Shown: positions 27,357 through 45,177 of the stretch, piece after piece
Numbering within the stretch: the stretch's first letter is position 1
How the letters are laid out: every line of letters starts with the position of its first letter
Assembly (NCBI GenBank): GCA_904395805.1
Contig: CAJFNV010000091.1
Span: 1-64,000 of the forward strand
Direction of reading: 5' to 3'
From: Candidatus Gallispira edinburgensis
GTDB lineage: Bacteria > Bacillota > Clostridia > Lachnospirales > CAG-274
DNA: 64,000 bases
Position numbers and translations under genes: made by a program
The notes under the pieces: generated by a model
What the model was told of the DNA's origin: nothing
Database searches by the model: none
The model's input: only the letters and a program-made list of their open reading frames with translations

Positions 27357-27527
27357 ATTTTTTCAATCTTTTTTATAGCAAAATTTGTAAATTTAAAGAA
27401 AAAAATATGCCTCGTTTTTCTATTACATTAAACCTATATTACATATAATTATTTGCCTCAGCTTAAGTTTATCAGAACTTCAAATATTTAATTTATGTTA
27501 CAATTTTCAAATTTATGCCTCAAACCC

Positions 27528-27556
27528 TTGACAAATACATAAAATTTATGTAAAAT
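27528..27556 (+). promoter_or_regulatory. Sigma-A promoter of the first NlpC/P60 gene
   Basis: TTGACA, 17-bp spacer and TAAAAT, 45 nt upstream of the start codon. A WalR-like box begins 4 bp downstream of the -10. Confidence 0.8.
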
Positions 27557-27560
27557 AGGT

Positions 27561-27577
27561 TGTAACATTTACGTAAC
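27561..27577 (+). promoter_or_regulatory. WalR (YycF)-box-like direct repeat, copy 1
   Basis: TGTAAC-N5-CGTAAC matches the WalR consensus TGTWAH-N5-TGTWAH at 11 of 12 positions. It overlaps the expected transcription start, which would suit repression more than activation. The same arrangement occurs upstream of the second NlpC/P60 gene. Confidence 0.55.
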
Positions 27578-27600
27578 AAATATAAGAAAGGAAGTCATTT

Positions 27601-28803
27601 ATGTTAAGGCTTAAACTATTAACTAAGACCATTACCGCAGGCTGTGTCCTTGCTATAGCTATGGCATCCACAGCATATGCGTCAAATCTGGCAAGGGTTA
27701 CAGCCACTTCCGTCAATCTTCGTTCATATAATTCAACAGAAGCCAGAATATTAGGTTCTGCCAATATGGGAGACACTCTTACAATTACCGGCAACGCAAA
27801 CAACGGCTGGTTTAAAATCAGCAAACCCGGTTTAAACGAGGCTTTTGTCAGCGCCGAATACATATCAATTTATCAGACTGACGCTACCTGTATAGATGAA
27901 AACGTCAATGTGCGTACAAGCCCCTCACCTACCGCAACAGTTATCGGTACAGCAAAAAAGGGACAGGTTTTTGTTACATCCGGTAAGAACGGTGATTGGT
28001 ATCAGATCAATTTCAATGGAAATACAGGCTATATTCATTCAGATTATATGCAGGGTTCTCTCCTTCAGTATCTTCCTGCTGTACAAGCTCCAACATCTTC
28101 AGATGAGGTTACAGCTAAAGCAACCGAAAGCAAAACAGCACAGGATGATATTTATGCAGTTGTAGAGGTTCCTACTCTTAATATGAGAGAAGATGCATCA
28201 ACTGATTCTGATATTATCAGAACTCTTCCAAGCGGATACAATTTAAGTGTTTCAGGTTATAAGGACGGCTGGGTAATTGTATCTGATGATGACGGCAATA
28301 CAGGCTATGTCAAAGCTGAATATATCAATCTTAAAAACGGAAGCAAACCCGATAACGTATCTTCAGACGATAACAGTGATTTCGATTTTGAATATGAAAA
28401 GAACTATACAAATGATGGTCCTGTAGACTGTCATGACGTTGTTGAATATTCAAAGCAGTATATAGGTACTCCTTATGTATGGGGCGGTACAGATTTAACT
28501 GCAGGTGTTGACTGCTCAGGTTTCATATACAGTGTATATGAACACTTCGGCATATCACTTAACAGAACATCAAGGGATATGTATACGGAAGGAACTCCTG
28601 TATCAAAATCAGAACTTGCACCGGGAGATCTCCTCTTCTTTAACACAGGCGGAGATTCAGTTATATCTCACGTTGGTATGTACATAGGAAACGGAGAATA
28701 TATTCACTCAACAAACGGATCCGATAATGGTGTCACAATTTCAAGTTTAAGCGACAGTTATTCAACATCAACATATGTTGGTGCCAGAAGAATACTTGAG
28801 TAA
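27601..28803 (+). CDS. Secreted SH3-domain NlpC/P60 peptidoglycan hydrolase (three SH3 domains)
   Basis: A 400-residue exported cell-wall endopeptidase. Residues 1-27 form a signal peptide ending TAYAS. Three bacterial SH3 domains follow (about 31-86, 97-150 and 181-238), recognisable by VNLRS/VNVRT/LNMRE and YV.AEYI motifs. An acidic linker leads to the NlpC/P60 domain (about 278-400), with nucleophile Cys305 in GVDCSGF and catalytic His357 in SHVGMYIGNGEY. It likely cleaves stem-peptide bonds. A WalR-like box at its promoter is consistent with control by the cell-wall two-component system. It is closely related to the gene at 30714. Confidence 0.95.
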   Translation: MLRLKLLTKTITAGCVLAIAMASTAYASNLARVTATSVNLRSYNSTEARILGSANMGDTLTITGNANNGWFKISKPGLNEAFVSAEYISIYQTDATCIDENVNVRTSPSPTATVIGTAKKGQVFVTSGKNGDWYQINFNGNTGYIHSDYMQGSLLQYLPAVQAPTSSDEVTAKATESKTAQDDIYAVVEVPTLNMREDASTDSDIIRTLPSGYNLSVSGYKDGWVIVSDDDGNTGYVKAEYINLKNGSKPDNVSSDDNSDFDFEYEKNYTNDGPVDCHDVVEYSKQYIGTPYVWGGTDLTAGVDCSGFIYSVYEHFGISLNRTSRDMYTEGTPVSKSELAPGDLLFFNTGGDSVISHVGMYIGNGEYIHSTNGSDNGVTISSLSDSYSTSTYVGARRILE

Positions 28804-28812
28804 ACATTTTTT

Positions 28813-28848
28813 CAGAGGGTATGCAAAAATACCCTCTGATTTTTTATT
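28813..28848 (+). terminator. Intrinsic terminator after the first NlpC/P60 gene
   Basis: A perfect 10-bp stem (cagagggtat / ataccctctg) and a T-rich tail, 10 nt after the stop codon. Confidence 0.9.
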
Positions 28849-28874: not shown

Positions 28875-28907
28875 AATCACCCCCTGCATATTTTGTAAGG
28901 GGTGATT
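28875..28907 (+). promoter_or_regulatory. Hairpin containing the dpaA ribosome-binding site
   Basis: aatcacccc (28876 region) pairs exactly with ggggtgatt (28899-28907). The right arm includes the GGGGTGA Shine-Dalgarno of dpaA and is followed by seven T, so it resembles both a terminator and a translation-blocking stem. It may be a terminator, an attenuator or a translational control element. Confidence 0.5.
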
Positions 28908-28910
28908 TTT

Positions 28911-29762
28911 TTGAGCAGAACAAAATTTGCAATTATCGGCGGTGACTACAGATATAAGCTTTTAAAGGACCTCTTTGAAAATGAAGGCTATATAGCTTCA
29001 ATATACGGAAATATTTATACAGAGAGCACCGACAGTCTTGACTCCTGTATACTGGATTCAAAGGCTGTGATCTGCCCTATTCCCATTACAAAAAATAATG
29101 ACACAATAAATATGAGCGAAAATTTCAAAATAACAATTGATGAACTCCTTAATTCAATGACAAATCACGGAGTCAAAATTCTGACAGCAGGCGTAATTCC
29201 CGATTCATTCATAAAAAAATCCGAATATATGGGTATTTCATCTACAGACCTTTTTTCAAGAGAAGATGTTGCTATCAATAACGCAATACCCACAGCAGAA
29301 GGCGCCATTATGACAGCTATACAGGAAAGCGACAGAGTCCTTTTCAGGAGCAAAATTCTTGTTATAGGTTACGGCAGATGCGGAAAGATACTGAGCAATA
29401 TGCTTAAAGGTATAGGGGCCGATGTCAGCATAACATACAGAAAAAAGAGCGACGAGGCATATATCAGTGCTTACGGCTGTTCACCTGTTGATATAAGATA
29501 TTTTGAAAGGCATCTTTCAGAATATGATTTTATATTCAACACTGCCCCCGCTCTTATTCTAAACAAGGAAAACCTTAAAAGAATACGCAAGGATACAGTA
29601 ATAATTGACATAGCCCAGGCTCCCGGAGGAATTGACTACAGCTATGCAAGAAAATTAAATTTAAAGGCACTTTACTGTCCCGGACTTCCCGGCAGAGTTG
29701 CGCCATACACTGCAGCCGAAATACTGAAGTCTGCAATTATAGATATTGTACTTGAAAGCTAG
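28911..29762 (+). CDS. dpaA: Dipicolinate synthase subunit A
   Basis: Makes dipicolinic acid from dihydrodipicolinate in the mother cell during sporulation, with DpaB. The protein of about 283 residues has an N-terminal FAIIGGDYRYKLL, a Rossmann NAD-binding segment LVIGYGRCGKILSNML near residue 150, and DIAQAPGGIDY near the C-terminus. The TTG at 28911 is preferred because AAGGGGTGA precedes it by about 6 nt; a GTG at 28902 falls within that site. Its presence indicates an endospore former. Confidence 0.95.
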   Translation: MSRTKFAIIGGDYRYKLLKDLFENEGYIASIYGNIYTESTDSLDSCILDSKAVICPIPITKNNDTINMSENFKITIDELLNSMTNHGVKILTAGVIPDSFIKKSEYMGISSTDLFSREDVAINNAIPTAEGAIMTAIQESDRVLFRSKILVIGYGRCGKILSNMLKGIGADVSITYRKKSDEAYISAYGCSPVDIRYFERHLSEYDFIFNTAPALILNKENLKRIRKDTVIIDIAQAPGGIDYSYARKLNLKALYCPGLPGRVAPYTAAEILKSAIIDIVLES

Positions 29763-29851
29763 CTCCACGGCAAATAAAATTTCAGTCATTACCCAAGTCA
29801 CGGCTCACCTAATCCCTTTTTTCATCATAGAATACAAAAGGAGGTGATACA

Positions 29852-30430
29852 ATGGACCTACAGGGAATAAATCTTGGTCTGTGTATGTGCGGTTCCTTTT
29901 GCACCTTCAGTGAGGTAATAAGGGAGACAGAGGCATTGAGCAGAAGAGGTATAAATATATACCCTATTTTAAGCTATAATGCAGATAGTATAAGCACAAG
30001 ATTTGGCGCTGTAGAGGATTTTAGAGATAAGCTGTATGATATTACCGGCAACAATATAATATCTACAATAAAAGAGGCTGAACCCATAGGTCCTCAAAAG
30101 CTCCTTGATATAATGCTTGTTGCCCCATGCACAGGCAACACTATGGCAAAGCTTAATAACGGTATAACAGATACTCCGGTTACAATGGCATGTAAGGCTC
30201 ATCTCAGAAATAACCGGCCTCTGGTTATAGCTCTTGCAACAAATGACGCCCTTGGCATAAGCCTTCAGAATATAGGAGGTCTTATGGTTCGCAAAAATAT
30301 ATATTTTGTCCCCTTCGGACAGGATAATCCCGAAAAAAAGCCATTGTCAATGATTGCGGATTTCAGTAAAATTTATGATACTCTTTCATATGCAATGGAA
30401 GGAAAACAAATACAGCCGGTTGTCTTTTAG
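29852..30430 (+). CDS. dpaB: Dipicolinate synthase subunit B
   Basis: A 192-residue flavoprotein-like partner of DpaA. Motifs are GLCMCGSFCTFSEVI at the N-terminus and the flavoprotein loop MLVAPCTGNTMAKLNNGITDTPVTMA in the middle. It starts 89 bp after dpaA with a strong AGGAGGTG site. Together the pair forms the spoVF-type locus, here placed between two wall hydrolases. Confidence 0.95.
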   Translation: MDLQGINLGLCMCGSFCTFSEVIRETEALSRRGINIYPILSYNADSISTRFGAVEDFRDKLYDITGNNIISTIKEAEPIGPQKLLDIMLVAPCTGNTMAKLNNGITDTPVTMACKAHLRNNRPLVIALATNDALGISLQNIGGLMVRKNIYFVPFGQDNPEKKPLSMIADFSKIYDTLSYAMEGKQIQPVVF

Positions 30431-30544: not shown

Positions 30545-30562
30545 CGCAACATATTTGTTGCG
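30545..30562. other. Perfect 7-bp palindromic hairpin
   Basis: cgcaaca-tatt-tgttgcg lies in the gap before the second NlpC/P60 promoter. A second terminator without T tract or a protein-binding site are both possible. Confidence 0.35.
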
Positions 30563-30610
30563 GAATTATTACATTATTCGCAAAAACTTTTACATATTTT
30601 AACTATATAC

Positions 30611-30639
30611 TTGACTTTTTATCTGATATGTTATAGAAT
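30611..30639 (+). promoter_or_regulatory. Sigma-A promoter of the second NlpC/P60 gene
   Basis: TTGACT, 17-bp spacer, TAGAAT, about 75 nt before the ATG. A WalR-like box follows within 7 bp. Confidence 0.7.
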
Positions 30640-30645
30640 ATCATT

Positions 30646-30662
30646 CGTAACATTTGCGTAAC
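30646..30662 (+). promoter_or_regulatory. WalR-box-like direct repeat, copy 2
   Basis: CGTAAC-N5-CGTAAC, 10 of 12 matches to the WalR consensus and nearly identical to copy 1 at 27561. The half-sites and the ATTT part of the spacer are the same. Confidence 0.55.
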
Positions 30663-30713
30663 AACTTTTAACATTTAACTAAAAACTGTGAAACAAATAT
30701 ATGGAGTGATATT

Positions 30714-31469
30714 ATGAATACAATAAACAAAATAAAAACAACATTGATTTTAAGCTGTATACTTACGTCTCTTTTCTCGGTATCAGCCTATGCAGATGAA
30801 TATTTATTTTCAAAACTTACCGCAAATTCAGACATTATAAACGTTACAACCAATTCCGTTGAAAACACTGATCCAAATATATATGTCACATGTAAAGCGA
30901 GCGTTGATATGAAGTCCGCCTCTTCAAATGATTCGGAACAAATCAGACTTTTACCTTCGGGATATAATTTAACTGTACTTGGTGCAGAACAGGGATGGGT
31001 CTATGTTCAGGACGACGATGAAAACAAAGGATATGTATATGCCTCAAATGTTACATTCAAAAACGGTACAAAGCCTGAAAATATTGATCCCATCGATGAA
31101 AAACGTACAGACATTGTAAATCTTTCAAAGCAGTATATAGGTACGCCTTATGTTTGGGGAGGTACCAGTCTTACATCAGGAGTTGACTGTTCCGGCTTTG
31201 TATACTGCCTTTATAAAAACTTCGGAATTACTCTTACCAGAAGCTCCGCAGGTATGTATGCCACAAACGGTGTATCCGTATCAAAGGATGAATTAAAACC
31301 GGGAGATCTGCTTTTCTTCAACACAGGAGGCGGCGGTGTATCTCATGTAGGTATGTATATAGGTAACGGAGAATATATCCATGCTGCCACTGTAGACGTA
31401 AAAATTTCTGACTTAAACGACAGTTACTCACAGAGAACATATGTGGGAGCCAAAAGAATATTTGTATAA
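30714..31469 (+). CDS. Secreted SH3-domain NlpC/P60 peptidoglycan hydrolase (one SH3 domain)
   Basis: A 251-residue paralog of the protein at 27601. It has a signal peptide (about 1-27, ending AYADE), one SH3 domain (about 58-115) and a C-terminal NlpC/P60 domain with Cys159 in GVDCSGF and His211 in SHVGMYIGNGEY. The SH3 and NlpC/P60 parts align closely with the last third of the longer paralog, suggesting duplication followed by loss or gain of SH3 units. The shared promoter motif points to common control. Confidence 0.95.
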   Translation: MNTINKIKTTLILSCILTSLFSVSAYADEYLFSKLTANSDIINVTTNSVENTDPNIYVTCKASVDMKSASSNDSEQIRLLPSGYNLTVLGAEQGWVYVQDDDENKGYVYASNVTFKNGTKPENIDPIDEKRTDIVNLSKQYIGTPYVWGGTSLTSGVDCSGFVYCLYKNFGITLTRSSAGMYATNGVSVSKDELKPGDLLFFNTGGGGVSHVGMYIGNGEYIHAATVDVKISDLNDSYSQRTYVGAKRIFV

Positions 31470-31572: not shown

Positions 31573-32613
31573 TCAGTCATTATTCTCCAGACTAAAGAAA
31601 TTTTTAATACTGCTAAAAAATCCCTTATCATCATCTGCCTGATATTCAATATACTTTCCTGTACCTATGGCAACACAGTTCACAGGATTTTCAGCTATAG
31701 TACATCTTATTCCTGTTTCATTTTCAATTACTCTGTCAAGACCTGATAACAGAGCTCCGCCTCCCGTTAACACAATTCCCCTGTCAAGAATATCTCCCGA
31801 AAGTTCGGGAGGAGTATTTTCAAGAACATATCTTACGGCGTCTATTACGGACCTTACAGGAACCCTTAAAGCCTCATACATCTCTCTTGATGTAATTTCA
31901 ACAGTCATAGGCATTCCTGATGTAGCATTTCTGCCCTTGACCTCAATTCTGCTGAGAGGCGTATCTTCGGCAGCCGTACCAATAATTATCTTAAGGTTTT
32001 CGGCAGTTCTTTCACCTATTACAAGCTGGTGCTCATCTCTCATGTATCTTACTATAGCATCATCGAACTTATCACCTGCAACCTTTATTGATGTGCTTAC
32101 AACAATTCCTCCCAGAGAAATAACGGCAACATCAGTTGTTCCTCCGCCAATATCCACAACCATACTTCCGCATGGTCTGAAAATATCAAGACCTGCACCA
32201 ATAGCCGCAGCAATAGGTTCTTCTATAATAAACACCTGGGCAGCACCGGCATTTCTCGTTGATTCTTCAACAGCTCTCTTTTCAACATCTGTGATTTTGC
32301 TTGGAACACAGACAGCAATTCTGGGTTTTTTGAGCCAGTGAGTGCCGACAGATTTATCAATAAAATATCTGATCATTCTTTCGGTTACTTCAAAGTCTGA
32401 AATAACTCCGTCACGCAGAGGTCTTACAGCTTCAATATTGGCAGGGGTTTTTCCGAGCATTTTTCTTGCCTCTTCACCAACTGCAACAATGGCATGCTTG
32501 CTGTTGTCAACAGCCACAACAGAAGGCTCCTGAAGCACAATGCCCTCCCCTTTACAATATACAATTACACTGGCAGTACCCAAATCAATGCCAATATCAT
32601 TGCCCATTACCAT
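31573..32613 (-). CDS. mreB: Rod-shape-determining protein MreB/Mbl
   Basis: Bacterial actin that organises lateral wall synthesis. The 346-residue protein begins GNDIGIDLGTASV, with later actin-fold signatures DIGGGTTDVAVISLGG and LTGGGALLSGLD. The usual mreC and mreD partners do not follow; instead the gene sits 3 bp after a CNNM transporter gene and ends at a terminator. It may be a second paralog of the MreB/Mbl/MreBH group, which sequence alone cannot separate. AGGAGA precedes the first ATG by about 9 nt. Confidence 0.94.
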   Translation of the reverse strand: MVMGNDIGIDLGTASVIVYCKGEGIVLQEPSVVAVDNSKHAIVAVGEEARKMLGKTPANIEAVRPLRDGVISDFEVTERMIRYFIDKSVGTHWLKKPRIAVCVPSKITDVEKRAVEESTRNAGAAQVFIIEEPIAAAIGAGLDIFRPCGSMVVDIGGGTTDVAVISLGGIVVSTSIKVAGDKFDDAIVRYMRDEHQLVIGERTAENLKIIIGTAAEDTPLSRIEVKGRNATSGMPMTVEITSREMYEALRVPVRSVIDAVRYVLENTPPELSGDILDRGIVLTGGGALLSGLDRVIENETGIRCTIAENPVNCVAIGTGKYIEYQADDDKGFFSSIKNFFSLENND

Positions 32614-45101: not shown

Positions 45102-45177
45102 AACATATCTCCTTTAATTATTTCGCAATTTACAATGCCTTAACATTTGCCATAGTTTATCTTTACTGCACTGTTCA

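Follow-up and report, generated by a model that had tools for sequence, protein, structure and literature searches.

Within the 64-kb window, by which we mean the whole stretch of DNA analysed from a gut Clostridia genome, two paralogous cell wall hydrolase genes each carry a direct repeat of WalR/MtrA type (boxes A and B) just past a predicted promoter. These boxes are probably operators through which the genome's own WalR-type (YycF) response regulator would repress both hydrolase genes, with both the identity of the regulator and the sign of regulation inferred. The boxes, the regulator, and the position rule are of kinds already known, and what seems undescribed within the literature searched is a box held in a fixed repressor position on NlpC/P60, Hydrolase_2, and mreB genes across Clostridia lineages. 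In addition, the usual sign of Wal control over hydrolases appears to be inverted here.

Hydrolase gene A (27601..28803, plus strand) encodes a protein of 400 amino acids with domain matches to three SH3_3 domains and NlpC/P60, and hydrolase gene B (30714..31469, plus strand) encodes one of 251 amino acids with matches to a single SH3_3 domain and NlpC/P60. Gene A is preceded by a predicted sigma-A-type promoter, TTGACA-17-TAAAAT (27528..27556, plus strand), with -35, 17-nt spacer, and -10 all conserved among orthologues, and gene B by a predicted promoter of the same type, TTGACT-17-TAGAAT (30611..30639, plus strand); the transcription starts at both boxes are likewise sequence predictions. 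On the plus strand, box A reads TGTAACATTTACGTAAC (27561-27577) and consists of two GTNAC half-sites, 11 bp apart, lying over the expected transcription start, while box B reads CGTAACATTTGCGTAAC (30646-30662), again a GTNAC direct repeat. The GTNAC half-site is a palindrome, which allows both boxes to be read from either strand. The minus strand gives TGTTAC-GTAAA-TGTTAC for box A (27562-27578) and TGTTAC-GCAAA-TGTTAC for box B (30647-30663), both perfect instances of TGTWAH-N5-TGTWAH, and the plus strand gives one and two mismatches, respectively. The better WalR reading is thus antisense to the gene, and the boxes are annotated on the minus strand (27561..27578 and 30646..30663). A preliminary description of this DNA had reported TGTAAC-N5-CGTAAC at 27561 and CGTAAC-N5-CGTAAC at 30646, lying 4-6 bp after the -10 of two paralogous wall hydrolases. 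Both sequences and coordinates are exact, the boxes start 4 nt (A) and 6 nt (B) past the -10, and the two proteins are 53% identical over their aligned part. It had also noted a close match to the WalR consensus, which we locate on the minus strand with no mismatch at either box, and an equal spacing in differing surroundings, which is borne out by the N5 of both boxes and the dissimilar sequence flanking them in the two paralogues.

From approximately 60 loci that were fetched by protein similarity alone, we examined 62 upstream regions in which the promoter is strong. YGTAAY-N5-YGTAAY occurs 2 to 8 nt after the -10 in 38 of the 62 as an exact match and in 43 of the 62 with at most one mismatch. 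In the same regions the reversed motif gives no match, ten other spacers give 0 to 1 match each, and a 4-nt spacer gives four, three of which come from one genus. When the box is sought at other offsets from the -10, 0 to 2 matches are found, except for 7 at about -10 to -4. Four further promoters keep the first half-site together with a weaker second one in the same place. Among aligned promoters of gene B orthologues, the invariant columns lie nearly all inside the box. Across 31 representative promoters the box stands 3 to 6 nt after the -10, and information content peaks at the -35, at the -10, and at both half-sites; as this profile mixes ten motif-selected class-wide loci with homology-selected ones, it describes the signature and is no test of it. 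The repeat holds this place behind near-consensus promoters of SH3-NlpC/P60 hydrolase genes in many genera. We also observe that in genus g4 (L066, L067, and L068) the half-sites are 10 bp apart instead of 11, at the same promoter position. A single half-site, TGTTACA (27496..27502, plus strand), lies approximately 64 bp before box A, with a similar TTAC half-site in nine of ten orthologous A promoters, in most orthologues at a distance of approximately 60 bp from the box, and a degenerate TGTTGC-N5-TATTAC (30556-30573) precedes gene B.

Beyond these homologous promoters, the motif is strongly enriched near genes of the cell wall; an absence of such enrichment had been considered in the preliminary description as an outcome against WalR. 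Allowing up to one mismatch, the extended box YGTAACAWTTRYGTAAYA is found in 45 of the 48 family genomes, compared with around ten matches in all for the reversed control, and most of the family matches inspected lie upstream of NlpC/P60, G5-3D, CAP, GHL10, or other exported-protein genes. At the level of the class, a scan of 391 genomes for TTGACA-N16-18-TAnnAT-N3-7-YGTAAY-N5-YGTAAY recovers 20 promoter-plus-box loci from 19 genomes and 7 families, with no match for the reversed control; five other spacers combined give 3 loci in 382 class genomes. The genes downstream of the 20 loci comprise 13 NLPC_P60 genes, gene A of the window among them, 3 Hydrolase_2 genes for wall hydrolases, and 3 MreB_Mbl genes as well as 1 unassigned gene. 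The exact pattern is present in approximately 5% of class genomes, so that the strict signature is scattered, not universal. The three mreB loci (L246, L247, and L248) belong to one family of the class. Two scans of the genome itself were set aside: a regulon scan with three mismatches (101 matches versus 104 for the reversed control) is uninformative, and a scan for activator geometry, with the box 8 to 30 nt before TATAAT, gives one match with no same-strand gene start just downstream.

Another conserved box is located in the interval separating tatD from a G5-3D gene (YabE/Sps type; Pfam G5 and 3D). The gene is at L138:4137-4919 on the minus strand and the box at L138:5095-5123, just past the tatD stop codon. 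On the gene strand it reads TGTTGC-N5-TGTTAC-N5-TGTTAA, giving three half-sites in 11-bp steps. A long hairpin whose tail is rich in T comes after the triple site, which is kept in 20 fetched relatives. Genus g7 of the same family (L092 and L095-L098) has strong hydrolase promoters without the box, with WalR present and the box of the G5-3D gene kept.

The genome encodes nine OmpR-type regulators. For the one at C85:16061-16744, the best match is the NCBIfam family YycF at 339.3 bits, 0.7 short of the cut-off of 340, followed by MtrA at 271. The adjoining kinase gene has WalK as its best match (473 bits, well short of the cut-off of 725) and contains HAMP, PAS, HisKA, and HATPase domains; a YycF-like regulator next to a WalK-like kinase speaks against an organism lacking WalRK, which had been raised as a possibility. 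The best PDB matches of the candidate's DNA-binding domain are the VicR, WalR, and YycF domains, and its reading helix, GDVRxVDVTxRRLREKIED, is near-identical to those of solved WalR/VicR domains. Orthologues of at least 70% identity are present in 46 of the 48 family genomes, the remaining two assemblies being incomplete or highly fragmented. As almost every family genome thus has WalR, those of genus g7 with its box-less hydrolase promoters included, presence and absence cannot identify the regulator. Inspection by eye of the region upstream of walR itself revealed no box.

The boxes share their half-site, 11-bp period, and wall-hydrolase targets with the WalR (YycF) boxes of Bacillus subtilis and Staphylococcus aureus. 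They also resemble the box of MtrA in Corynebacterium glutamicum, with the consensus (A/G)TAACAATttn(A/G)TAACAAT and targets that include nlpC, mepA, mepB, and rpf2 (PMC3353115). That box is nearly identical to YGTAACAWTTRYGTAACAWTT and its target types are similar, but it is read by an actinobacterial regulator, whereas the candidate here is closer to YycF than to MtrA. Firmicute WalR is in this way linked to actinobacterial MtrA, since consensus and target types (NlpC peptidases and resuscitation factors) agree almost letter by letter.

It is unlikely, yet the foremost alternative, that the boxes are real repressor operators read by another OmpR-type regulator, either a WalR-like paralogue or one of PhoP type. 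The paralogue at C11:81211 is 54% identical to the WalR candidate, its best family match is again YycF, and in two genomes a box lies approximately 160 bp before its gene; however, at 266 bits it scores far under the candidate itself. For a regulator of PhoP type, the pstS promoter of the same genome (L263) offers a direct comparison: its Pho-type direct repeat, TTTACA-N5-TTTACA, has the 5-nt spacer in common with the hydrolase boxes, but its half-site differs from their TGTTAC or TGTAAC. Position 6 of the half-site is C or T in all 31 representative promoters and never A, and we therefore reject a Pho-box identity. The targets, moreover, are wall hydrolases, the classic WalR/MtrA set, which argues against another regulator in general.

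As to the sign of regulation, WalR sites upstream of the -35 activate in S. aureus, whereas sites between or downstream of the -35 and -10 repress, whatever their orientation (PMC10746227), and in C. glutamicum MtrA represses from sites near the -10 (PMC3353115). On the predicted promoters, boxes A and B both lie downstream of the -35 and -10. In the clostridium Clostridioides difficile, expression of the NlpC/P60 gene cd630_27680 falls approximately 4-fold when WalR is overexpressed, and two WalR sites are predicted for it (PMC9210968); predicted sites in that report are placed relative to the start codon, approximately 100 nt upstream of it. Taken together, the position rule of S. aureus and C. 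glutamicum and the repression in C. difficile suggest that WalR~P bound as a dimer over +1 to +17 of a near-consensus promoter would most simply act as a repressor, which lends support to the repression proposed in the preliminary description. In such a mechanism a phosphorylated WalR dimer would bind the repeat in tandem, cover about +1 to +17, and stop RNA polymerase either from forming the open complex or from escaping the promoter. High levels of WalR~P would then mean less of both D,L-endopeptidases, and low levels would release the two strong promoters. With another geometry, this regulator would probably also act on the G5-3D (YabE/Sps-like) wall gene and on a small number of further wall proteins that are secreted.

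That WalR binds the boxes but activates from them, for example by helping RNA polymerase to open or escape the promoter, we consider improbable. Activation of hydrolase genes has precedent in B. subtilis, where WalR~P activates the D,L-endopeptidase genes lytE and cwlO and represses iseA (PMC7299342), and the half-site kept upstream in most A promoters would be in keeping with it. However, the known activator sites of WalR and MtrA sit upstream of the -35, the near-consensus -35 and -10 elements already present would need no activator, and the leader between box and start codon is too short to accommodate a second promoter.

A near-fixed distance from the -10 might also be expected if no regulator were involved and the repeat belonged to the promoter, as an initially transcribed sequence or a discriminator, or acted as a 5' RNA element. 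This we regard as very improbable, because the distance to the -10 ranges from 3 to 6 nt while the half-sites stay 11 bp, or one helical turn, apart, and because a related box is placed differently relative to the promoter at other wall genes. With transcription expected to begin within or close to the first half-site, the transcript would include the repeat only in part, but conservation is equal for the two half-sites.

The boxes are not a chance similarity in AT-rich sequence: although the WalR consensus with two mismatches matches everywhere (288 times in the window), this is already refuted by the conservation among orthologues and by class-wide scans whose control gave no match. Such loose matching is uninformative because the DNA is AT-rich. 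A stricter search for YGTAAC-N5-CGTAAC with at most two mismatches gives 11 matches in the window, compared with 3.5 expected from shuffles, and exact matches are confined to boxes A and B, both in the window and in the whole 2.5-Mb genome. The two 1-mismatch genome matches inspected, at C72 and C29, both fall within coding sequence, and a perfect TGTWAH repeat at 45129-45145, upstream of a histidyl-tRNA synthetase gene, resembles chance.

In B. subtilis, low cleavage prompts WalRK to activate hydrolase genes, which keeps D,L-endopeptidase activity steady. Whereas lytE and cwlO are activated there, the hydrolase boxes described here stand after the -10, in repressor position. We consider it an even proposition that in several Clostridia lineages the Wal circuit has a sign opposite to that of B. 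subtilis, WalR directly repressing D,L-endopeptidase genes (and mreB in one lineage) via an operator fixed just past the -10, such that either the signal polarity of WalK is inverted or Wal serves to shut off wall hydrolysis, not to maintain it. With an unchanged WalK polarity, this arrangement would give positive feedback, and hence a difference would be required, either in the polarity or in the role that these hydrolases play. If true, the sign with which the same regulator acts on its principal class of targets would be reversed, and the feedback, signal polarity, and essentiality known from Bacillus would not be transferable. For use across the class we offer the signature TTGACA-17-TATAAT-N3-6-YGTAAY-N5-YGTAAY, together with a short list of promoters.

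Finally, the two hydrolase genes are separated by dpaA and a flavoprotein-family gene (28902-30430), which would together encode the dipicolinate synthase subunits; the latter gene is likely dpaB, a name based on its place after dpaA. An intrinsic-terminator-like hairpin (28812..28839, plus strand) lies between gene A and dpaA. The two hydrolase genes lie about as near to each other in genome G005, and elsewhere they are apart. On its other side, hydrolase gene B adjoins an mreB/mbl gene (31573-32613, minus strand) in the window. Among named relatives, the closest are assemblies of uncultured Clostridia, with isolate names pointing to rabbit gut ("Lapin"), sheep rumen, and similar samples.
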